DNA of 64,000 nt from a virus. This document shows positions 3,549-48,027 of the stretch, in pieces. How positions within the stretch are numbered: the stretch's first letter is position 1; each line of letters opens with the position of its first letter. Both the position numbers and the translations under genes were made by a program. The notes below the pieces were generated by a model. That model was not told the origin of the DNA, searched no databases, and worked only from the letters and a program-made list of their open reading frames with translations. The stretch covers positions 62,001-126,000 of the IMG/VR virus record IMGVR_UViG_3300030004_000009, one strand, 5' to 3'.

Positions 3549-3839
3549 CTACTCGTCGTATGCTGCTTCACTATAGCAGTCATCGCAATATCGTTGTCCT
3601 TCAAAATCATTATCTTCTGAAGTTCCACACCACCAACCACAAGATTCACATACAAAGATCCAATTATCCAACTCCATGTAATCATCTTCTGTTAGATCAT
3701 CTTCATCCATATCAGGATATTTTGGTGTATAATCATCATTAAGTATACCATCTTCTCCAAAACAACTTGATATTGGGTGTCCACATGTACCTTGAAGATT
3801 CTGTATTACATCTTCTATATCAAAATTCTCTGCTCTCAT
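3549..3839 (-). CDS. Acidic zinc-ribbon-like protein, 96 aa
   Basis: Contains CGHPISSC at about 19-26, CESCGWWC at about 64-71 and CDDC at about 85-88, which could form one or two zinc ribbons. The segment between is strongly acidic (many D and E). Function unknown; small treble-clef or ribbon proteins of this kind in phages are often nucleic-acid or protein binders. It sits directly against the ATP-grasp gene upstream. Confidence 0.6.
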   Translation of the reverse strand: MRAENFDIEDVIQNLQGTCGHPISSCFGEDGILNDDYTPKYPDMDEDDLTEDDYMELDNWIFVCESCGWWCGTSEDNDFEGQRYCDDCYSEAAYDE

Positions 3840-4595
3840 TTAATTAAATTTATTTTCTAATGCTATTAATAGCTTTTGTATATCTACTTTATAAAAACCA
3901 CTACTATTTATACAATTGATTTCTACAATCTTCCAACCATCTGGAGTTTGACAAACATCCATAACAAATGCTGGAGCAACTTTGTATAAATCAACCATTT
4001 GTTGACCAAACTCTAAAGCTTCTGGTTCTACTCCATCTAACCATACAACATTACTATGAAAGAAGTAATAGGAAGAAGTAACAATCTTATCTCCAACTAT
4101 CCATAATCTAACTTCCTTGTAAATAGCTTTTGGAGAAGCTATTTGGATTAATGAATCGTCTGGTATATTTAGACCACTCTGTAGTTTCATATCTTCCCAT
4201 TTAACTTTAGTAAATAGTTTACCATTAAATAACTTACTATCCTTGCACGGCCTAATAAATTTTACTTCATTAAGTTGCCAATCTAAATAGTCTGTATATT
4301 TAATTATTTTACTGTCATAATTTAACATATTATCACCATAATACTTACTATGTATACTAAAATCATGATTACCACCATAAAAAGATCCAGGATAGAAATT
4401 ATATTTTTTAGCTAATCTAGCAAGTTTAACAGAACCAAATACAAATATATCTTTTCTATCTATGTTAAATTCAACTTCTTCAATAAATGGTTTACAATCA
4501 ATAACTTCATAAGCAAGATTAAGACGTTCAAGAGTTTCTATCAGTTTATGATAGTTTTCATACTGAAATGTATTCTTCTGTATTAAATAAAACAT
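3840..4595 (-). CDS. ATP-grasp domain protein (R2K clade)
   Basis: 251 aa. The layout matches the phage ATP-grasp R2K family (PF14243): an N-terminal pre-ATP-grasp region with FVFGSVKLARLAKKY, a middle FTKVKWEDMK segment, IASPKAIYKEVRLWIV at about 155-170 and a C-terminal VMDVCQTPDGWKIVEINCIN, where the acidic and Asn residues bind Mg-ATP. Such enzymes ligate an amine to an acyl-phosphate; the substrates of the phage clade are unknown. It lies 3 nt from the metallophosphoesterase gene. Confidence 0.75.
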   Translation of the reverse strand: MFYLIQKNTFQYENYHKLIETLERLNLAYEVIDCKPFIEEVEFNIDRKDIFVFGSVKLARLAKKYNFYPGSFYGGNHDFSIHSKYYGDNMLNYDSKIIKYTDYLDWQLNEVKFIRPCKDSKLFNGKLFTKVKWEDMKLQSGLNIPDDSLIQIASPKAIYKEVRLWIVGDKIVTSSYYFFHSNVVWLDGVEPEALEFGQQMVDLYKVAPAFVMDVCQTPDGWKIVEINCINSSGFYKVDIQKLLIALENKFN

Positions 4596-20009: not shown

Positions 20010-20315
20010 TTATATATGCTTATCAAATGTATTAATTAATTTCTGATTCTCAGTATTTAAGAAAGCAAAAATATCTACTAACTTATCTAACTTATTTAAA
20101 TGACCACTGGGATCTGGTGGAGTTTCTTTCACACTAGGTGTAGGTTTAGGAATTGGCATTAATTTATCTATAACTTTCTCATAATCATATGTAATCGTAG
20201 AATATCTATCTAATTGATAAAGTAAACTATCTATTATACTCTCTAATGTAGTACTTTGTTTTTCTGATAGATCACTACCATATCCTACTGATTCTTTTAT
20301 TTGTGGTATTCCCAT
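20010..20315 (-). CDS. Hypothetical protein, 101 aa
   Basis: Not recognised. Helical, with a proline-rich linker (PIPKPTPSVKETPPDPSG) between two helical halves. Starts on the last base of the GIY-YIG gene upstream. Confidence 0.55.
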   Translation of the reverse strand: MGIPQIKESVGYGSDLSEKQSTTLESIIDSLLYQLDRYSTITYDYEKVIDKLMPIPKPTPSVKETPPDPSGHLNKLDKLVDIFAFLNTENQKLINTFDKHI

Positions 20316-20920
20316 TATTTCTTTATTACTCTATTATCACTCTTATTCTCACCTTCTATCTCTTTAACTTCGTGATATCTCCATTTAAATCCGAAAGCAC
20401 TTTTTCTCTTTCCTTTACAACATGAACCAATAGTACTAGTAAAGCTTGCATCTTTTCCTACAGATTTACACGCATCACTAATTGATATAAATGTATCGAC
20501 TAATTCTAAAGTGTTATAGTCTAATTTGTCTACAGGTAATCTCTTAGATTCATAAGTACAAGCTGGAGGTCTAATATTATGTTCTTTCGCATAAGCTCTA
20601 AGTTTATCTTTGGTTTCTTCACTCATTACTTTACCAACTTGTGAGTAAGCTTTAGGACAAATGTTATATTTTGGAGTTAAACTATCTAAATAATGATTCT
20701 CTCTATCACATAAATCTTCTCTTTCACATTCTTCTATCACATTAAAGGTAAAAGAATCTTTACCATATTTATCATATGCTCTCTGTAATATGATAGAATG
20801 ATGTCTATTGCCTTTTAAATCTTTTTTATGCCTTTTAAATCTTTCCTGGATATTGACTGATGAACCAATGTAACAGTCTCCGTTTGTCTCGTTTAGTATT
20901 TTATATACACCTGAACTCAT
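20315..20920 (-). CDS. GIY-YIG homing endonuclease, free-standing
   Basis: 201 aa. GVYKILNETNGDCYIGSS at residues 4-21 gives the GVY...YIG core, followed by ERFKRHKKDL with the catalytic Arg, and Glu in RENHYLDSL. The C-terminus ends with SAFGFKWRYHE, a repeat-type DNA-binding module of intron-encoded GIY-YIG proteins. It lies directly after the ThyX C-terminal fragment and has its own promoter with the ATG only 7 nt past the -7 box. Probably inserted next to thyX by homing. Confidence 0.88.
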   Translation of the reverse strand: MSSGVYKILNETNGDCYIGSSVNIQERFKRHKKDLKGNRHHSIILQRAYDKYGKDSFTFNVIEECEREDLCDRENHYLDSLTPKYNICPKAYSQVGKVMSEETKDKLRAYAKEHNIRPPACTYESKRLPVDKLDYNTLELVDTFISISDACKSVGKDASFTSTIGSCCKGKRKSAFGFKWRYHEVKEIEGENKSDNRVIKK

Positions 20921-20960: not shown

Positions 20961-21305
20961 TTATTTTAAAATAACTCTTGGATCACGCAGATTCTCTTCA
21001 GGTATAGTTTTACGGTGCTGTAGAAATCCTTTAAAGTTTCCTGACCAAATACTACTTGAAAGCGCTTGTGCAACATGTTCAAATGGACTGAGATGCTTAG
21101 AAGTTAAAAGAGTATTATACAATTTTATATCTGCTTCATAGTCGTCTTTACCTTCAAAGTTAAGATAACTCACGCGGGCGCAGTGAGCTACACGTATCAT
21201 TAAAGCTATCTGTTCTAATGATTTGAATTCACTATTTCCAAATTTAGCTATAGCTAATGGTGTTAATCTATTTATATCTAATCCTGCGATACTATGTATT
21301 TCCAT
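20961..21305 (-). CDS. thyX: ThyX flavin-dependent thymidylate synthase, C-terminal fragment
   Basis: 114 aa. VAHCARVSYLNFEGK, HLSPFEHVAQA and SGNFKGFLQHRKTIPEEN are the C-terminal conserved blocks of the longer phage-type ThyX. The ATG overlaps the end of the GIY-YIG gene that separates it from the N-terminal fragment at 22152-22715. Its stop is formed by the TTAAAATAAATTTG sequence that precedes the next endonuclease promoter, so the far C-terminus may also be trimmed. The two halves could assemble, as in split phage enzymes. Confidence 0.8.
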   Translation of the reverse strand: MEIHSIAGLDINRLTPLAIAKFGNSEFKSLEQIALMIRVAHCARVSYLNFEGKDDYEADIKLYNTLLTSKHLSPFEHVAQALSSSIWSGNFKGFLQHRKTIPEENLRDPRVILK

Positions 21306-22087
21306 TTCTTATGTTTATCATTCCCTTTTAATCTATGTATCGTAGTAGTATGAATACCAGCTAATATAGATAGTTGTTCTATACTATCAGCTTCTATTAA
21401 TTCATTAGTTATTTTATTTAATAACTTACAAGCTACTCTATTATGAGGAACTCTACCACTAACATTAAAATTATCTCCACGTCTACTAGTATAAGGTTCA
21501 ATTTTTAAAAGAGGTACCTCGGTGAATTTTTGAAACATGAAGTTATTTCTACTCCATTTCTTTTTATGACAACGATGAATATCGTTGTCAGGTATTCCAG
21601 TTTGACGGGATGCTTCCATCACTGACTCAAACTCTTCAATGAAGTTACCTTCTAGGTCATATTTAGCAACTTTTACTTTCTTTGATCCAGCGATGCGATT
21701 AAGTGTATTTTCAGGAGTAGCCTTACCTCTTCCACCACCTTCAGTTAAATTATATCCGACTCCATTAGTACTAGATTTAAATAAATCTATATAATAGACC
21801 TCTTTCTCATTTAACTCCTTCTCATCAGTTACTTCATCTAGTATTTCAATAGTAAAGTTTTCCGCTCCATACTTAAGTATAGCTTTATGAATATAACATA
21901 TACTTTTAGTTCTATTGGTTGTACAATCAGTATGTTCCTTAACTCTAACACGAAATCTTGTAGTTATACCTATATAGATCTTATGATTTACTAAATTGGT
22001 AATCTTATAAATTATATTTTTTCCTGTGTAACAATCTAATTGCTTTCTTGCTTTTAATGGTTTTAATTCTTCTAATGTGGCTTTCAT
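21278..22087 (-). CDS. GIY-YIG homing endonuclease inside thyX
   Basis: 269 aa. KNIIYKITNLVNHKIYIGIT supplies the IYK...YIG core and RFRVRVKEH the catalytic Arg region; ELNEKEVYYIDLF carries the Glu. The C-terminal part has a nuclease-associated modular repeat (VAKYDLEGNFIEEFESV) and a helix-turn-helix-like end (SIEQLSILAGIHTTTIHRL). It sits between the two thyX fragments, overlapping the second by 28 nt, and has its own promoter at 22107-22138. Confidence 0.88.
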   Translation of the reverse strand: MKATLEELKPLKARKQLDCYTGKNIIYKITNLVNHKIYIGITTRFRVRVKEHTDCTTNRTKSICYIHKAILKYGAENFTIEILDEVTDEKELNEKEVYYIDLFKSSTNGVGYNLTEGGGRGKATPENTLNRIAGSKKVKVAKYDLEGNFIEEFESVMEASRQTGIPDNDIHRCHKKKWSRNNFMFQKFTEVPLLKIEPYTSRRGDNFNVSGRVPHNRVACKLLNKITNELIEADSIEQLSILAGIHTTTIHRLKGNDKHKKWKYIVSQD

Positions 22088-29433: not shown

Positions 29434-29720
29434 AACTTTGCATTTATTCTATCAACTGTGATAGGTCCTTCTTCAGAATATACTGCTGCATATTCTTGCT
29501 TATCTTCAGGTAAACTATCATCTATTAAAAGTACAAATGGTAACTTAGTAACTGCATATTTATGCATAACTGTAGTTGCATCGCGTCGAGTTGTAAAATC
29601 TTTACAGTCAACACTAAGAAGCTCAAAGAACAATTGTTCTTTAAACTTCTTTGAATGCATCATTAATCTATCAACATATGGCCTTACCTCTTTATTTGAT
29701 ATAAATTTTATGATTTTCAT
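29430..29720 (-). CDS. Thioredoxin-fold-like protein without CxxC
   Basis: 96 aa from ATG 29720, an ATGA junction with the RNR stop. The sequence has a strand-helix start (MKIIKFISNKEVRPYVDRL), LLSVDCKDF, then KYAVTKLPFVLLIDD, which looks like the cis-proline loop of thioredoxins. The usual CxxC is absent, with one cysteine. Its position after RNR suggests a relation to reductant delivery, but this is weak. Confidence 0.4.
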   Translation of the reverse strand: MKIIKFISNKEVRPYVDRLMMHSKKFKEQLFFELLSVDCKDFTTRRDATTVMHKYAVTKLPFVLLIDDSLPEDKQEYAAVYSEEGPITVDRINAKL

Positions 29721-32700
29721 ATGACACAACCATCTTGACCTGAACACGCTAGTGCTCCCATACTATCTGCATTACGTAGATCTTCATTAAGCTCTACTTT
29801 GCTCCAGTCTACAGTTTGCCAATTACGACAAATCTTTATCCATTTATGATAGTTCTGCACATCTTTTAAGCAATAAGTCATCTTCTCTAAATCTCCATTA
29901 AAATTATTAGCTGCAAATTGCTTTGCTCTCCTAATCCAATCAACTTTAGCTGAGAATTTAAATACTGTGCTTCTTAAATCATTTGATAAAAACTCTCTAT
30001 ATGCTTTCCTAGGTGGTTTAACACCCAAACCTTTCATATTCTTCGCGTATTCTTCATCAGCTTTGAGTTGTAACCACATAGTACCAATATCCATAGTACC
30101 CATTACCTTCTCAACTTCTTCATCAGTATAAACTAGCTTTTCGCCTCTATCAAGTACTGTATCACATGCTGTCCATAAAGTATCGAATACCTCAAGAGCA
30201 TCGACAATTAATCCAGAAGCAAATATTGCGGCAGAACCGTACATTTCGACCATCTCCTGTGGCGTATATACTGCAGTATTTGGTGCTTGGTTATAGTTCC
30301 TATCACCTCCTCTTGCCATAGTTGATATACCAGCAAACCATTGACGATTCTCATATACATACTTAGTAAATACATCCCAATCATCAATATCAACAGTATT
30401 TGACACATTATGTCTTAAATAAGGTTTTGTGCATAAATCAATATTTGTACCTTCTTCAATCCAGTTTTGTTGAATTGATTTGATAATCTCAAGATGTTTT
30501 ACATTAAATATATCACTCTTATAAAGTTCAGTACCTTTAGTTACTATTGGAAAAGCTAAACAATAATCAGTACCACTAGAAGACCATACAGACTGTTCTA
30601 CTGCGTTTGGATTTAAATCCTTAAATACTTGAGCACCTAACTCTTGTCTATTAGCTTGTACATGTCGTATATACATATGTGAATGTTCAGGTGATACACC
30701 AGAAGTTGTTTCAAGTAGAATTGCGGTATTACCTGCTGGTTTAGAACATGTAGTTCGAGCAGATTGATTAATACCAATCATTTCAGCAACTATCTTATTC
30801 CAATATTTTACAATTCTAGCACCTTCTCGTTGTACTTCTTCGTTTAAAAGAACATCAGGTTGAGTTAGCCACCCAGTCACAGATACACCAAGTAGAGCTT
30901 CATGTTCAAATATCTTCTTAGTGGCCTCAGTTACATACTTAAAGTTAGTAAACCCAGCCTGAAGAGTTCCCATGATTGCACCAGCTTTACAAGCTTGATA
31001 AAAGGTTTCAGGAGTATTACAACGAACTCCAGCAATTTCAACAAGATTACAACCTTGCCAGCCTGATTCTCCAGTTATTGTTTGTGGATGCATGGAGATT
31101 TCAACACAGTTTCCAGTTAGAATGCCATTAAACATACCCATATGCCTTAAAGGTTCATTAAAGCAATAAGTATCATCATATCGATTTTCATCGATTATTT
31201 CTAATACTTTTGTAAATTGACCTGCATCACGCTCTGGTTTCTTAGCTTCATAAACTAATCTATGAGTTATTAAACCTAGTTGAGATAACTTATGAAGATT
31301 AACTGAAGATATTAATATCCTATAACACTTCTTAGTATCGTAGTCTTTATACTCACCTGTACCATCATTTTTTGGTAAACTAGATTTACCAGCTTCTCTT
31401 GCAGTTTTTACTTTACTTCTAATACCTAATGTTTGTAACATTAATTGTACTTCCTTTAGAAAATCTAAATGAATAGAAGATATTTGTAAGCCTTCATTAC
31501 CATCTCTTTTGTCTCTTGCAACACAACCATCAGAATCTAATAGACCTGCAAACCATTGAAGCCTACTTTCTATAGTATATCGTGCATCTGGTACAAAAAA
31601 CTTAGCTTGTAAACCTTTAACATTACCAAATGTAATCCTTTCATTATTTTCACTTCTAAAAGAATTTCCTGATTCTATGAAAGGTTCTAATAGTTTCTTT
31701 TCAGAGTATAGATATATTATAGCATTATTTTCAAAGAAGCAACCATCACCAGAGTAGAACCCATTAGTATAAGCTTTACTTAATTGTTGATCCCCTTCTA
31801 TAATAGGTAGATCATACTTTATTAATTTATCACCAATCTCTAATCCACTAGTTTCAATCTTTTTATATTGTGGTTTACCTTTATGAATTCCATCATATAT
31901 ATACCACTTATGATAAGGTGTACATTCAAGTAGAGTGCCATCATCTAAAATCACTTTTAATATTTTCTGGTTTTCACCTGTTTTCTTAATTGTAACTTCA
32001 GACCATTGTTCTCCATTCCATATCTTAGTAATTTGATCTTCTAGAGTTGAAATTTGTTGATATCCAATTTCAGTTAGCACATTCGTCTCTGGAGTGACGC
32101 AGGGATTGAAAACTGTGTCTTCATCATCAACAAAGATAAAACCAGGTTCTCCAAAGATTTTAGCATTATTAACTAAGGCTTCAAATTCACTTAATGTGAC
32201 CTTACTTCTCATAAGGGCACACGAATTGTTGCTACGTCCCCTTTGTGCCTGATCAATGAACCAATTGCCAGTTTTAGCTTGTGCCATCTTAGTATCAGTA
32301 GGTGAAAATAGAAATATAGTTGCACTACGACGTACACCACCACTAAGAACTGCATCAGCAATATGCATTACTATATCATAAGAGTCAATAGTCTCTAATT
32401 TACCACTTTGTTGATTAACAACTCGATTAAGTAAATCTTCAATTTTCTCTAATGACTTCTTAAGACCGTTTGGTCCAGGAGCTTTAAAGCCACCAGATAT
32501 AAGAGCTCCTTCTTCACGAATTAAAGAATAATCCATATGAACTATCTTTCCAGAGTATTCAGGAAATGTACCATGTTCTTTAGAAAGGAATGAGGATATT
32601 AAGACACCTACACTATCAGCCCAACCTTCTATACTATCAGGAATTTGATAAGTTTTTGTAGCTTTTCCCCTTTTAATAAGTAAGGGAAGTTTGTCATGAT

Positions 32701-33097
32701 GTTTATACTGAACACTAGTTCCAGTACCGCATCCGCATAAAAGTAAATACATACACTCTTGAAAGTACCTAGGTCTATCACAATACGACGATAAGCAATT
32801 GTAAACTTTCATCTCATGTTTAAGAACTTGAGGTCCTCCAAACTGCAATATACGTTGAGATGCTAAAACTAACCTATCTTTATAAGCTTCTCTTGCAAAC
32901 TCAATAAGTTCACGTAACTCTGCATTCTTAACTACTATATCTTTATATTTAGTAATATAAGTTTGATTAAAGACTCTATCTACTGCCTCATCCCATGTCT
33001 CTTTACGATTCTGTCCTTCAACTTTACGTAAATAAGCACTAAAGAGTTTATATTCTGCTAGTTCATGTCTTGTATTTAATTCTTCGTTATAGGCCAT
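29717..33097 (-). CDS. nrdJ: Class II ribonucleoside-triphosphate reductase with intein
   Basis: 1126 aa precursor: N-extein residues 1-332, intein 333-663, C-extein 664-1126, so mature enzyme about 795 aa. The N-extein has GCGTGTSVQYKHH and ADAVLSGGVRRSA; the C-extein resumes CVEISMHPQT and includes GCNLVEI and QTEPC-like later blocks (TTCSKPAGNTAI). This matches monomeric adenosylcobalamin-dependent RTPR rather than class I. It makes dNTPs from host NTPs and needs host B12. The intein sits exactly between Pro and the conserved Cys of the NPC motif. Confidence 0.92.
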   Translation of the reverse strand: MAYNEELNTRHELAEYKLFSAYLRKVEGQNRKETWDEAVDRVFNQTYITKYKDIVVKNAELRELIEFAREAYKDRLVLASQRILQFGGPQVLKHEMKVYNCLSSYCDRPRYFQECMYLLLCGCGTGTSVQYKHHDKLPLLIKRGKATKTYQIPDSIEGWADSVGVLISSFLSKEHGTFPEYSGKIVHMDYSLIREEGALISGGFKAPGPNGLKKSLEKIEDLLNRVVNQQSGKLETIDSYDIVMHIADAVLSGGVRRSATIFLFSPTDTKMAQAKTGNWFIDQAQRGRSNNSCALMRSKVTLSEFEALVNNAKIFGEPGFIFVDDEDTVFNPCVTPETNVLTEIGYQQISTLEDQITKIWNGEQWSEVTIKKTGENQKILKVILDDGTLLECTPYHKWYIYDGIHKGKPQYKKIETSGLEIGDKLIKYDLPIIEGDQQLSKAYTNGFYSGDGCFFENNAIIYLYSEKKLLEPFIESGNSFRSENNERITFGNVKGLQAKFFVPDARYTIESRLQWFAGLLDSDGCVARDKRDGNEGLQISSIHLDFLKEVQLMLQTLGIRSKVKTAREAGKSSLPKNDGTGEYKDYDTKKCYRILISSVNLHKLSQLGLITHRLVYEAKKPERDAGQFTKVLEIIDENRYDDTYCFNEPLRHMGMFNGILTGNCVEISMHPQTITGESGWQGCNLVEIAGVRCNTPETFYQACKAGAIMGTLQAGFTNFKYVTEATKKIFEHEALLGVSVTGWLTQPDVLLNEEVQREGARIVKYWNKIVAEMIGINQSARTTCSKPAGNTAILLETTSGVSPEHSHMYIRHVQANRQELGAQVFKDLNPNAVEQSVWSSSGTDYCLAFPIVTKGTELYKSDIFNVKHLEIIKSIQQNWIEEGTNIDLCTKPYLRHNVSNTVDIDDWDVFTKYVYENRQWFAGISTMARGGDRNYNQAPNTAVYTPQEMVEMYGSAAIFASGLIVDALEVFDTLWTACDTVLDRGEKLVYTDEEVEKVMGTMDIGTMWLQLKADEEYAKNMKGLGVKPPRKAYREFLSNDLRSTVFKFSAKVDWIRRAKQFAANNFNGDLEKMTYCLKDVQNYHKWIKICRNWQTVDWSKVELNEDLRNADSMGALACSGQDGCVI
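31109..32101 (-). mobile_element. LAGLIDADG intein in RNR
   Basis: 331 residues. Block A starts CVTPETNVLTE, block B includes LLECTPYHKW, endonuclease motifs are NGFYSGDGCFF and FAGLLDSDGCVA, and the end is YCFNEPLRHMGMFNGILTGN followed by the extein Cys. The two LAGLIDADG-like helices support homing activity. The penultimate residue is Gly instead of the usual His, seen in some inteins and sometimes slowing Asn cyclisation. Confidence 0.93.
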
Positions 33098-34787: not shown

Positions 34788-35663
34788 TTATACTGAAGTG
34801 TTAACTTCATTTTTACCATTATTATCTATAAAATCTTGCAAAGAAACATTTGAATAATTCTTCCATAACTCCTTACACTTAGTAACATTAGTACCAGTTA
34901 AAATATTTGTAGCACGTTGTATATCATCATATACCCAATCCCTAGATAAAATTAAGAGATCTTTATACTCAATAAATGTACCATTCTCAACAAGTTCTTC
35001 CCTTGCTCTTTTAACATATTGTGCAGCTTCTTTAGATAAAACCTTACTAACTTTAGAATCCTTGTGAATTATAAGTTTACCTTCTATATAAGTCCCTATT
35101 AGTTCACACTTCTTGATGCCTTTTAAGAAGAAACGAGAATCTTGTGGCTTACCAAATTGAGTTATTAAAAAGCGACCACTTGATGCTTGAGATATTATGT
35201 TAATAATAGTATCACCATAATTCTCACACTCTTCGCTTTCATCTTCATTTAAATTCCCTTTAGTTGGTACTACATCATTATCTACTATAATATTAGGAGA
35301 AATCCTAAATCTATTATAAAGCATATTCTCTATATGAGAAGCTTGAGAATCTCCAAAGGAATTGTCATTTGTAGTTATAATAAAAAGCTCTGTAAAGAAG
35401 TCTTTGTCTTTATCTTTTTTATGCTTATTAACCCTTTCAAGCACATTACCTGATTTCCCAACATACACTACTGTTTGTCCTAAATCATTAACACCTATTA
35501 GGATATAAACACCTGTGTTGTCTACATACTTTATATTTTCAAGGTTTGGTAAAAATTCTCTGAAAGTCCTTACTACTTGTATATATTTTAGGTAAATGTC
35601 ATTATATCTATATATTCCATCTGCGATAACAGAAGATTTTATTTTCTTTCCAAATTGGTGCAT
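34788..35663 (-). CDS. GIY-YIG nuclease with DUF4357-like C-terminus
   Basis: 291 aa. GVYILIGVNDLGQTVVYVGK (about 51-70) is the GIY...YVG core, followed by VLERVNKHKKDKD and a Glu in ASHIENMLYNRF. The C-terminal SRDWVYDDIQRATNILTG then ELWKNY resembles DUF4357, a domain frequently fused to GIY-YIG nucleases. Unlike the other GIY-YIG genes here it has no TAnnTTTG promoter directly upstream and does not break a recognised gene, so it may have another role. Confidence 0.8.
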   Translation of the reverse strand: MHQFGKKIKSSVIADGIYRYNDIYLKYIQVVRTFREFLPNLENIKYVDNTGVYILIGVNDLGQTVVYVGKSGNVLERVNKHKKDKDKDFFTELFIITTNDNSFGDSQASHIENMLYNRFRISPNIIVDNDVVPTKGNLNEDESEECENYGDTIINIISQASSGRFLITQFGKPQDSRFFLKGIKKCELIGTYIEGKLIIHKDSKVSKVLSKEAAQYVKRAREELVENGTFIEYKDLLILSRDWVYDDIQRATNILTGTNVTKCKELWKNYSNVSLQDFIDNNGKNEVNTSV

Positions 35664-44284: not shown

Positions 44285-45874
44285 TTATTCGTTATAAGCG
44301 TTTATAGCATCTACAACAAATTGTAGATCATTTGGTATTAACTGATCTTTAAAACAATCCATAGGAGTTTTTGCAGTAGTAGTACCGTCATTTTGAGTTT
44401 CAAAATAATAACCTACCTTATCAGAATCTTCCTCACGTACTATTTTAGTAAAGAACACATAAGTAAACAAACCTTCAATACTGATCGCATTATCTAGTAA
44501 TTTCATAATTTTTGAATAAGCTTTTCTTGGTGTCGTCAACACACTTATTCTCCAGTGTTTCCACTGGTATGGGTCATATCTTTAAATTCGTTATAATCCT
44601 CCAAATACATCCATTTATAACCGGCAGACTTTTTAAATTTCCCTTGGCAACATCTCATTAAAGAACTTGAGTCAACACTATAAAATCTAGCAGGATCTAT
44701 AATACATTCCCACTCTTTTATAAACTCTAAAGTTTTTAAATCTAATTGTACTACCTTTCTACCTTGATTCTTTACTACTACAGCTCTTATATTAGCTTTA
44801 GCTGTATCTGATTTAGGTATACCTTTTAGTAATTTAGAATGTCTCTCTTTAAATTCATCAGTTCTCTTTTGTCCTCTGTTAGCAGCAGCTCTTTTTTCAA
44901 TACTTTCTGCTGAGAAAACTTGTCCTTTATTGCCATCTCCACCATTAGTTAGATTGGTAAGTCTGAATCCCCAAGCTCTAAATTGAGCTATCCAGTAACT
45001 TTCTAACCATTCCCAATCATCTGTACTCTCTATAGAATCGAGAAGTTCTATTTTAGGGAATAAATCTAATTTGAGTAAAGATTGAATCCAATTACAATTG
45101 TGATTTTTATATCTCTTAACTCTGGCATCAGAAATGTGGTTAGTTAATCTTTGGTTTAACGTACGGGATGTTTTACCGATATATCTGATTTCATTGGTTC
45201 TGGGATCGCTTAGCGTATAGATATTAATCATAACGCAAAGATACGAATTTATCTACTGTTTTGCAAATTTATTTTAACATTTAAATTCACTACTTCCCGT
45301 CAAGGGAATGACCTCCACACACGCCTGGGATTAATCCCTGCTTGGCTCGGTATTGCCATATCCATAGGACTTAGGTTTCACCGAATTAAATAGATACAGG
45401 CAATTACTTACCAATAGTCTTGAACTTTCTTTGTGGATTTAAAACATCGCCAACATTCTCTTCATGACCAAATACAAAAATCTTTAAATCTTCTCTTAAA
45501 TCAGATGCTGTAGATAAGATATTATAGAATTCAGATGCCATCTCAGTAAAACGACCATAGCCTTTATCGTTAATCTTATCCATATTACTAAAGGCCATAA
45601 CATAACCAGCGTCATCTAAGATAACTTGTTTAATATCAGGACGCTTTTGATCAATATACTTCAAGACTTGAACTATATTACCACTTTTAGAAGTATTTAA
45701 AAGATTACCTTTTTCCTTATCTACTGTAAAGGAGTGATAATTCTTCTTATAACCTTTTATTGGAAGTGGTTTCTTTGCAACATTTATAATAAAGGTTTCT
45801 TGTGGATCTAGAGTACGAATACTTGATGACTTGCCTGTTCCTGGAGGCCCAATTACAGCGATTAATTCACTCAT
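44285..45874 (-). CDS. Sak4-like RecA-fold ATPase interrupted by a group I intron
   Basis: Exon 1 is 45874-45410 (155 codons) and exon 2 44503-44285, together about 227 aa. Exon 1 has Walker A IGPPGTGKSSS, Walker B VILDDAG and FVFGHEE, matching the AAA_24/Sak4 group of single-strand annealing ATPases. The joint reads KTIGKLLDNAIS, and exon 2 adds LFTYVFFTKIV and the acidic end. Without splicing exon 1 would stop after KTIGK. It sits beside SSB and helicase genes, as Sak4 homologues do. Confidence 0.82.
44545..45231 (-). CDS. GIY-YIG homing endonuclease (intron-encoded)
   Basis: 228 aa. INIYTLSDPRTNEIRYIGKT provides the IYT...YIG core; LNQRLTNHISDAR has the catalytic Arg and WLESYWIAQF the Glu. 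NGGDGNKGQVFSAES and RTDEFKERHSKLLKG are the NUMOD-like repeats of group I intron endonucleases. It has its own promoter; the ATG follows the -7 box after only four bases, so the mRNA may be leaderless. Confidence 0.9.
   Translation of the reverse strand: MINIYTLSDPRTNEIRYIGKTSRTLNQRLTNHISDARVKRYKNHNCNWIQSLLKLDLFPKIELLDSIESTDDWEWLESYWIAQFRAWGFRLTNLTNGGDGNKGQVFSAESIEKRAAANRGQKRTDEFKERHSKLLKGIPKSDTAKANIRAVVVKNQGRKVVQLDLKTLEFIKEWECIIDPARFYSVDSSSLMRCCQGKFKKSAGYKWMYLEDYNEFKDMTHTSGNTGE
45236..45267 (-). promoter_or_regulatory. Bacteroidota-type promoter for intron GIY-YIG
   Basis: TTTG (45267-45264), 20 nt, TATCTTTG (45243-45236), with TTAAAATAAA upstream. Full consensus match. Confidence 0.85.
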
Positions 45875-45932: not shown

Positions 45933-48027
45933 TTAAAATCTCATTTTAAAATTAACTGGAGTAGGTTTAACTTCTACTTCTTTCTTTGGTGGTTGTAAGT
46001 GAAGGAACTGTTCCATATCATTTTCTTGTAAACTCCTTGGTTCAGGCATTTCACGCCATAGTCCAATACTTCCAAAGAAATTAAGACCTATACTTTTATC
46101 ACTTTCTCCAAGTCTAGCTTTTAGTACTTGAACTGCTCGATAATGATTTTTAAGTATACGTATGTTATAATCTTTATGTGAAGTCATCTTCTCTCTCCAA
46201 GGATGAAATATTGCAAGAACAACTTCTGCGTCTTCTGAAGGTCCACCACTATCTTTAATATCACTAAGTTCTATTTCCTGTCTACTCTCTTTAACACGAA
46301 GCATATTAGCTTGACCTCTATTAATTTGAAGTAAAACTAAAGGTGAATAAGCGCATTTATTCCTAAATCGTAAAAGATATTTTGATGTTAAATCCATAGC
46401 ATCTTTTTTAGTCTGACCCTGTAATAAGTTAATCAAACCTAAGTGATCGACAACAATAAGAACAAGTTCATCCTTTATGTACGGTTCGTACACATCACTG
46501 TATTCACCTTCTATAAATGTACCATGGCTCTTAGAGTACTCACTTAATGAAGCATAGATACCTGATGAAGATACATTCTTGTCTACTATTAGAAGTTGCT
46601 TCTCAAACTGTTCTAGCCAAGGCTCACAACTTTCAACAAGTGCCAAATGTTTATCAGATAAAATTTCCTGTCTTGACATAATCTGCTTATAGCTTAACTC
46701 CACTCCATAAGTCTCAAAGATATGTAGAGATAGTATTTTTGCCATTAATATTTCACCTGTCATTTCAAGAGAGTAGTAAACTACTCTATATCGCATATCA
46801 CCTAAATGATCTGCAATTAGACGATAAACGTAACTATATAACGCTAGTGTTGTTTTACCAGCATTTGTGTTCAATAGAATTCGTTAATTTCTATCTGTTA
46901 TTTTATAACTACTATATATCACTATATAGATCAGACTATATCTTCATCTTTCGATGTCCCCCGTTTCGAATCACTTGATTCTACGCTTTTCAGCTAGTCG
47001 TTACACCTTCATCTTTCGATGCTTGGCTCGGTATTGTCTCAGCCTTGAGATCGTCCACCGAATTAGAGGGATTTATACTGAGCCTACTTATTTCGTAAAC
47101 TCCTTGATATAATGTCTTCTTTTTAAGAAAGTAATCAAAGGTTGATACACTACAATTAAAATATCTAGCAAACGCAACTCTACTTTCAATTTCTATGGCA
47201 CTATTGTCACGAATATCTCTAACTAATACAGCAGTCATGTTCTTTCTTTTTGGTGCTTTAAACTCACCAACTTTAGACCAGACAAATCCTTTATAAGATT
47301 GAATTCTATCTTGTTTACAAGCTTCATGAATTTTCTTTTCCATATTAGATATATTACCTTCAAATTGCTTAGCTGCATCTGTTACCGCATCCCAAATTTT
47401 ATAAGTTGTACCATCTAAGTTAAACTGCCATACTTTAGTAATCGCAGTTCTCTTAATTTCACCACTCTTATATTTAGCTTTGAGAGTATCAGATATTTTA
47501 ACTTTCATTTCTTCAGTGATCTCACAATCAATAACATTTTGAACTACGTTAAATTCTGGTTTAAGTTTATTAATCCAGTGTTGTTCTCTTTCAAAACGTT
47601 CATCCTCCTCACAATACTCCATAATTTCTATAATGAATGATTCTTCACCATATTTATTAAAAGAGTTCTGTAAGTTTTTATTGTCATGTGTATTACTTTT
47701 TAGATCTGACTTATGTCTGTGTAATCTATAATATATTGATTTTGAAGAACCAATATATCTTTTACCATTGTTTTTGCAGGTTATTTTATAAACACCTGCT
47801 TTTCTTTCTGTACTTATGTCTATTTGCATAGACAAAGATACGAATAATTATTGGAATTTGCAAATTTATTTTGAATTTAACCCAGTACCTCCGCAAATTA
47901 TAGAATATGTCTGACGTTGTATTCCATCCATTAAAGCCTCAAGACGAGGCAAACCCATTGATAAACCTTTATTTAGGCCAAGTATTCCACGCTTGACCAT
48001 ATTGTACATACGTTTTATAAAACTCAT
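45933..48027 (-). CDS. DnaB-like replicative helicase interrupted by a group I intron
   Basis: Exon 1 is 48027-47880 and exon 2 46861-45933; spliced length 358 aa. Exon 1 reads GLPRLEALMDGIQRQTYSII then CGGTG; exon 2 supplies the rest, so the joint makes the Walker A motif GGTGSGKTT across codon TCT. Walker B is ELVLIVVDHLGLI; QINRGQ and the R-finger SGGPSEDAEVVL follow. The DnaB N-terminal collar domain is absent, as in several phage helicases. ATG 48027 overlaps the preceding stop (TAATG). Confidence 0.88.
46990..47829 (-). CDS. GIY-YIG homing endonuclease (intron-encoded)
   Basis: 279 aa from ATG 47829 (MQIDISTERKAGVYKI). GVYKITCKNNGKRYIGSS is the core, YRLHRHKSDL the Arg helix and FEREQHWINKL the Glu. 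Modular DNA-binding repeats follow (VWQFNLDGTTYKIWDAVTDA, YKGFVWSKVGEF). The ATG is 3 nt after the -7 box, suggesting a leaderless transcript. The 3' end overlaps the ribozyme core including one P7 strand. Confidence 0.9.
   Translation of the reverse strand: MQIDISTERKAGVYKITCKNNGKRYIGSSKSIYYRLHRHKSDLKSNTHDNKNLQNSFNKYGEESFIIEIMEYCEEDERFEREQHWINKLKPEFNVVQNVIDCEITEEMKVKISDTLKAKYKSGEIKRTAITKVWQFNLDGTTYKIWDAVTDAAKQFEGNISNMEKKIHEACKQDRIQSYKGFVWSKVGEFKAPKRKNMTAVLVRDIRDNSAIEIESRVAFARYFNCSVSTFDYFLKKKTLYQGVYEISRLSINPSNSVDDLKAETIPSQASKDEGVTTS
47833..47864 (-). promoter_or_regulatory. Bacteroidota-type promoter for dnaB-intron GIY-YIG
   Basis: TTTG (47864-47861), 20 nt, TATCTTTG (47840-47833), preceded by CAAAATAAA. 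Located at the very 5' end of the intron, immediately after exon 1. Confidence 0.85.

Follow-up and report, generated by a model that had tools for sequence, protein, structure and literature searches.

A replicative helicase gene of a crAss-like phage is very likely interrupted, within the codons for its Walker A motif, by a mobile group I intron (subgroup IA, to judge by its hairpins) that would splice between the T and the CT of a single codon and home by means of a GIY-YIG endonuclease. The sequence is from a metagenome assembly, and the window is the whole stretch of 64,000 nt that was analyzed, that is, bases 62001–126000 of a 176.7-kb IMG/VR virus record. The nearest matches of the window helicase are crAss-like gut phage helicases and, by this homology, the phage is crAss-like. 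The helicase, the endonuclease, the intron, and the neighboring genes under study all lie on the minus strand; the main features are given below in window coordinates.

47880–48027, minus strand: 5' exon of the DnaB-type replicative helicase, with its ATG at 48027 and ending ...GGA GGT ACT GGG T
46862–47879, minus strand: group I intron of 1,018 nt (Rfam Intron_gpI match at 47135–46912; junction scan)
45933–46861, minus strand: 3' exon of the helicase, beginning CT GGT AAA ACA ACA ...; the spliced product matches DnaB_C
46990–47829, minus strand: GIY-YIG homing endonuclease ORF of 279 aa, with its ATG at 47829 (a TTG at 47835 is also possible)
47833–47864, minus strand: match to the Bacteroidota-type promoter consensus, TTTG-N20-TATCTTTG, inside the intron, ending 3 nt ahead of the endonuclease ATG

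The 5' exon ends in ACTGGGT, the intron runs from TAAATTC to ACAAATG, and the 3' exon starts with CTGGTAAAAC, the Walker A Ser codon (helicase residue 50) being interrupted after its first base. T/CT across the joint is TCT (Ser), and therefore the joined frame reads CGGTGSGKTTLALYSYVY; the spliced cDNA predicted across the joint is ACTGGGTCTGGTAAAAC, and the Walker A motif of the spliced helicase is GGTGSGKTT. Only one of the 19 register-preserving joints (±9 nt) has a 5' exon ending in U and an intron ending in G, namely the proposed one, in which the terminal G is G46862 and the host frame is restored, as in group I introns. The other joints within 9 nt on either side were ruled out by this U/G rule. 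The sequence-only reading had placed the intron at exactly these coordinates; its split codon with the restored motif was borne out by the register scan and by intron-free homologues, and its final G by the uniqueness of the U/G joint. The endonuclease in the P1 loop with its overlap of the core, the intronic promoter, and the near-identical intron sites in related phages go beyond that reading.

A group I intron spliced one base earlier (GGG/TTAAA ... AAT/GCT GGT) is a very improbable alternative. Its product, GGTGAGKTT, is an acceptable P-loop, and many relatives do have Ala at that position (SNSGAGKTS), but with this joint the 5' exon would end in G rather than U and the intron in U rather than G, the U.G pair would be forfeited along with the first pair of P10, and the product would disagree with the closest relative, which has Ser. 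Translation from the 5' exon into the unspliced RNA meets a stop four codons into the intron, as is usual for such introns (PMC3073962). An intein was considered and rejected, given this in-frame stop and the lack of an open frame continuous with the exteins.

The joined exons of the favored T/CT splice encode 358 residues that match Pfam DnaB_C (1.4e-17) and the PHROG DnaB-like helicase (4.8e-21). As had been suggested, we compared the product with intron-free homologues, which read through the site without an insert or a gap: MT836666.1, with a single uninterrupted helicase ORF, aligns without a gap at the joint, and 40 relatives have residues 40–62 without an insertion, though several of these contigs are near-duplicates and the 40 should not be counted as 40 independent cases. 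The closest relative (L023, 60% identical) reads GGTGSGKTTFALYSYVY and shares its P-loop with the spliced product; at the DNA level it agrees with the window as far as ACTGG and then again from GGTAAAAC. A closely matching pair of alleles with and without the window intron was not found, the nearest empty site being this one, 60% identical in protein.

One might also suppose that the helicase is truly split by an endonuclease cassette, and that the phage uses the pieces, or another helicase, with no RNA splicing. Plain ORF calling does give an endonuclease ORF and a 3' helicase ORF that, as foreseen, starts at an in-frame TTG (45933–46874, MNTNAGKTT) and is missing the front half of the P-loop. 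We hold this to be no more probable than the shifted joint: an intact Walker A motif is essential for DnaB ATPases, the exons are in register and otherwise undamaged, and there would be no reason for a split gene to keep an entire ribozyme core together with a fitting P1 and P10. Least probable of all is a degenerate, non-splicing relic or an assembly chimera between phages; the sequence is of metagenomic origin and ribozyme activity is here only predicted, but no conserved element of the core is damaged, the reading frame of the endonuclease is intact, the two exon flanks read as a single gene and each has relatives, and independent isolates have a similar arrangement.

The group I identity of the intron, which is our preferred explanation, is upheld by both Rfam and the helix map. 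When the 1.4-kb region was scanned alone, model RF00028 (Intron_gpI) matched at 73.6 bits (E 1.9e-18; gathering score 50; model positions 1–253), far above what chance would give. Two Rfam scans of the whole window missed the intron; absence from such scans should therefore be given little weight. The following elements were placed by the helix map, and the core also by the Rfam match.

47880–47886, minus strand: P1 5' strand, exonic ACUGGGU
47077–47083, minus strand: internal guide sequence, the P1 3' strand GCUCAGU, with U47880.G47083 at the splice site
47084–47086, minus strand: P10 strand UAG, pairing with the CUG that opens the 3' exon (46861–46859)
46912–47071, minus strand: catalytic core
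47071–47066 with 46962–46957, minus strand: P3
47061–47057 with 47032–47028, minus strand: P4
47050–47046 with 47041–47037, minus strand: P5
47027–47025 with 47007–47005, minus strand: P6
47021–47018 with 47013–47010, minus strand: P6a
46999–46995 with 46938–46934, minus strand: P7
46994–46992 with 46987–46985, minus strand: P7.1
46981–46977 with 46972–46968, minus strand: P7.2
46956–46953 with 46948–46945, minus strand: P8
46929–46923 with 46918–46912, minus strand: P9

The map thus holds the conserved P3–P8 core with a G-binding P7, and the U.G pair of P1 with an internal guide sequence, that define group I. The P1 pairing proposed earlier (ACTGGGT with GCTCAGT) forms seven of seven pairs with U.G at the cleavage site; a comparable 7-bp P1 in the 60 nt before P3 was found in 2.6% of shuffles. 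P7.1 and P7.2 hairpins are a trait of subgroup IA, present in the T4 introns, and two hairpins (46994–46985 and 46981–46968) do lie between the P7 5' strand and the P3 3' strand; as drawn, rather than through a subgroup-specific model, they point to subgroup IA. Both hairpins have been used for classing introns (PMC3984707). DNA resembling this core is present in many phage introns, often within DNA polymerase genes.

In splicing, the helicase pre-mRNA would fold to bring the exon end ACUGGGU into pairing with the guide GCUCAGU, and exogenous guanosine would attack behind the U at 47880. From this anatomy, the freed 3'-OH of the exon is then expected to attack behind the terminal G46862, joining T to CT and restoring GGTGSGKTT.

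The endonuclease ORF occupies the P1 loop, the stretch that separates the 5' splice site from the guide sequence. Its product has Pfam GIY-YIG (1e-12) and NUMOD1 domains and matches I-TevI, its only solved relative (1mk0, 7.4e-11); the catalytic Arg, Glu, and Asn of the GIY-YIG domain are present in that alignment, the residues being assigned by eye. The last 94 nt of the ORF overlap the guide sequence, P3, P4, P5, P6, the P7 5' strand, and P7.1. Such overlap with the core ("core creep") is known, the largest in the published table being 81 nt (PMC3073962). We infer that the enzyme cuts intronless helicase alleles, into which the intron would be copied by homing. The window has three further GIY-YIG ORFs on the minus strand (20315–20920, 21278–22087, and 34788–35663, the third below the Pfam cut-off), of which 20315–20920 has a promoter match, TTTG-N20-TACCTTTG, 7 nt before its ATG.

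The TTTG and TAnnTTTG boxes within the intron are those of the Bacteroides sigma consensus (PMC7366714). Across the whole source record, TTTG-N18..22-TAnnTTTG occurs at 15 sites, several of them directly preceding ORFs; the spacer is exactly 20 nt in 12 of the 15, a regularity that suggests a genuine class of promoters. TTTG-N20-TAnnTTTG precedes all six intron endonucleases checked, four of them with one mismatch in the -33 box and one of these (cr111_1) with a further mismatch in the -7 box (two in total). In the phages frurule, PhiCrAssBcn16, cr112_1, and cr111_1, the box pair, with its 20-nt spacer, stands 16–23 nt before the ATG, against a background rate of 0.3% of 80-nt stretches; these four Steigviridae introns are related and should not be taken as four independent observations. 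The endonuclease is probably transcribed from a host-type promoter of its own within the intron. An I-TevI-like autorepressor operator over the promoter was sought and is unsupported (best identity 12/20 versus a shuffle average of 12.6).

The P-loop of the helicase is interrupted in other phages as well. The Kolpuevirus frurule, cultured on B. cellulosilyticus, and PhiCrAssBcn16 each have three CDSs in the order helicase, GIY endonuclease, and helicase; in the uncultured cr112_1 and cr111_1 the helicase is split likewise, and the 5' piece is without an annotated helicase CDS. In the records of these four phages, no feature in these regions is labeled as an intron, although the note on the cr111_1 endonuclease reads "intron endonuclease," and the main text of the papers on the cultured isolates does not discuss a helicase intron. 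Recognizing the intron corrects the gene model of the helicase in a crAss-like phage and in several GenBank records that list it in pieces around an endonuclease. Exact empty sites are found in cr126_1 and PhiCrAssBcn17, which are intron-free, the latter having exons 98–99% identical to those of PhiCrAssBcn16. PhiCrAssBcn16 and PhiCrAssBcn17 are cultured and infect one Bacteroides intestinalis strain, and this natural pair with and without the intron would allow intron homing in gut phages to be tested directly by co-infection. The element type is well known; what makes the window case directly testable is that relatives in culture either carry or lack an insert at the P-loop.

Comparison with the empty sites puts the Steigviridae introns behind ...AAAAGGT, either exactly at GGT AAA or one base ahead of it. 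Their Intron_gpI scores are 50.1 bits (cr112_1), 49.2 bits (PhiCrAssBcn16), and 36.5 bits (frurule), the last two being below the gathering score, and the window and frurule endonucleases are 39% identical over 144 aa. Directly behind the GGT codon, 5 nt from the window site, MT835492.1 (L003, about 3620–4000) carries an ORF-less insert of ~400 nt; Rfam does not recognize it, yet P1–P4 and P6–P8 can be drawn by hand, and we class it as no more than group I-like. Measured from the opening base of the invariant GGT codon, the insertions fall at -2 (the window), -1, 0, and +3, and in all four cases the 5' exon ends in GGU.

What is new is the repeated interruption of crAss-like helicase P-loops in these genomes, with four insertion positions inside a span of 6 nt. 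The P-loop may be a target because its sequence cannot diverge and because its Gly codon supplies the GGU needed by P1. On balance we lean toward the wider reading that the Walker A codons of crAss-like DnaB are a recurrent group I target, entered by at least two to three separate lineages within 6 nt in different phage groups, and that the endonucleases are expressed apart from the helicase through the host sigma factor and an intron-borne promoter, in the window case from a near-leaderless mRNA. Different introns clustered in the P-loop would make a clear case of selfish elements choosing a sequence that the host cannot change.

Known systems share parts of this arrangement. The T4 td intron with I-TevI (group IA2) has the same group I core, P7.1/P7.2-type hairpins, and a related GIY-YIG endonuclease; it also has an endonuclease promoter within the intron, which in T4 is middle and late (PMC2988022), and an ORF whose 3' end extends into the core (PMC3073962). 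It differs in its host gene (thymidylate synthase rather than a DnaB helicase) and in its ORF, which lies in the P6 loop and overlaps by 20 nt, as against the P1 loop and 94 nt here; the window promoter is of the host Bacteroidota type, and no operator resembling the homing site was detected over it. The Steigviridae introns share the gene, the P-loop, the GIY-YIG endonuclease, and the promoter with a 20-nt spacer, but are inserted 1–2 nt away and have cores that are weaker against Rfam (36–50 bits). Inteins favor the P-loops of DnaB and terminases (PMC5050341) and are likewise selfish homing elements in the Walker A motif, but they splice as protein and keep an open frame, whereas the window insert has stops and a ribozyme core. 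Endonuclease ORFs in P1 are found in the Synechocystis tRNA-fMet and Physarum LSU introns (PMC3073962, Table 1), which differ in having PD-(D/E)XK and His-Cys endonucleases, RNA host genes, and overlaps of 61 and 0 nt, respectively. Group I splicing in another gut phage clade is supported by metatranscriptomes (PMC12363816).

The Zeta and Delta crAss-like phages are intron-rich, and their dense group I introns have been described in part of a published study (Yutin et al. 2021, PMC7886860). Our phage resembles them in its large genome (176.7 kb; Zeta 145–192 kb) and in the many inteins and group I introns that interrupt its core genes, a likeness that consists of helicase homology, genome size, and intron density. 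The intron hosts named in that part of the study differ, being MCP, PolB, primase, ATP_43b, and TerL and not the DnaB P-loop (PMC7886860).

Several other interrupted genes were seen. The helicases of L053–L058 carry another group I intron at residue 257/258 (70.2 bits in L055), with a large ORF in L053 and L054 and in an ORF-less, 249-nt form in L055–L058. In L083 (PQ867851.1), a member of the Zobellviridae unrelated to crAss-like phages, the primase/helicase appears as three CDSs with an intron-like core between them. The neighboring Sak4/AAA_24 gene of the window has a second group I-like intron of 906 nt (44504–45409, minus strand), to which Rfam gives no score; it holds a GIY-YIG ORF (44545–45231) with a promoter match at 45267–45236, 4 nt before the ATG, and joining GGT to AAA across an intron that ends in ATG yields a full-length Sak4-like protein, of which MT836666.1 has an intact version. 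Outside the window, the first 5 kb of the source record (G000:C1:1-5000) contain four full and one partial Intron_gpI matches, which probably belong to a single gene or operon with many interruptions. Within the window, a ribonucleotide reductase of 1,126 aa (29717–33097, minus strand) contains a LAGLIDADG domain that is likely an intein.
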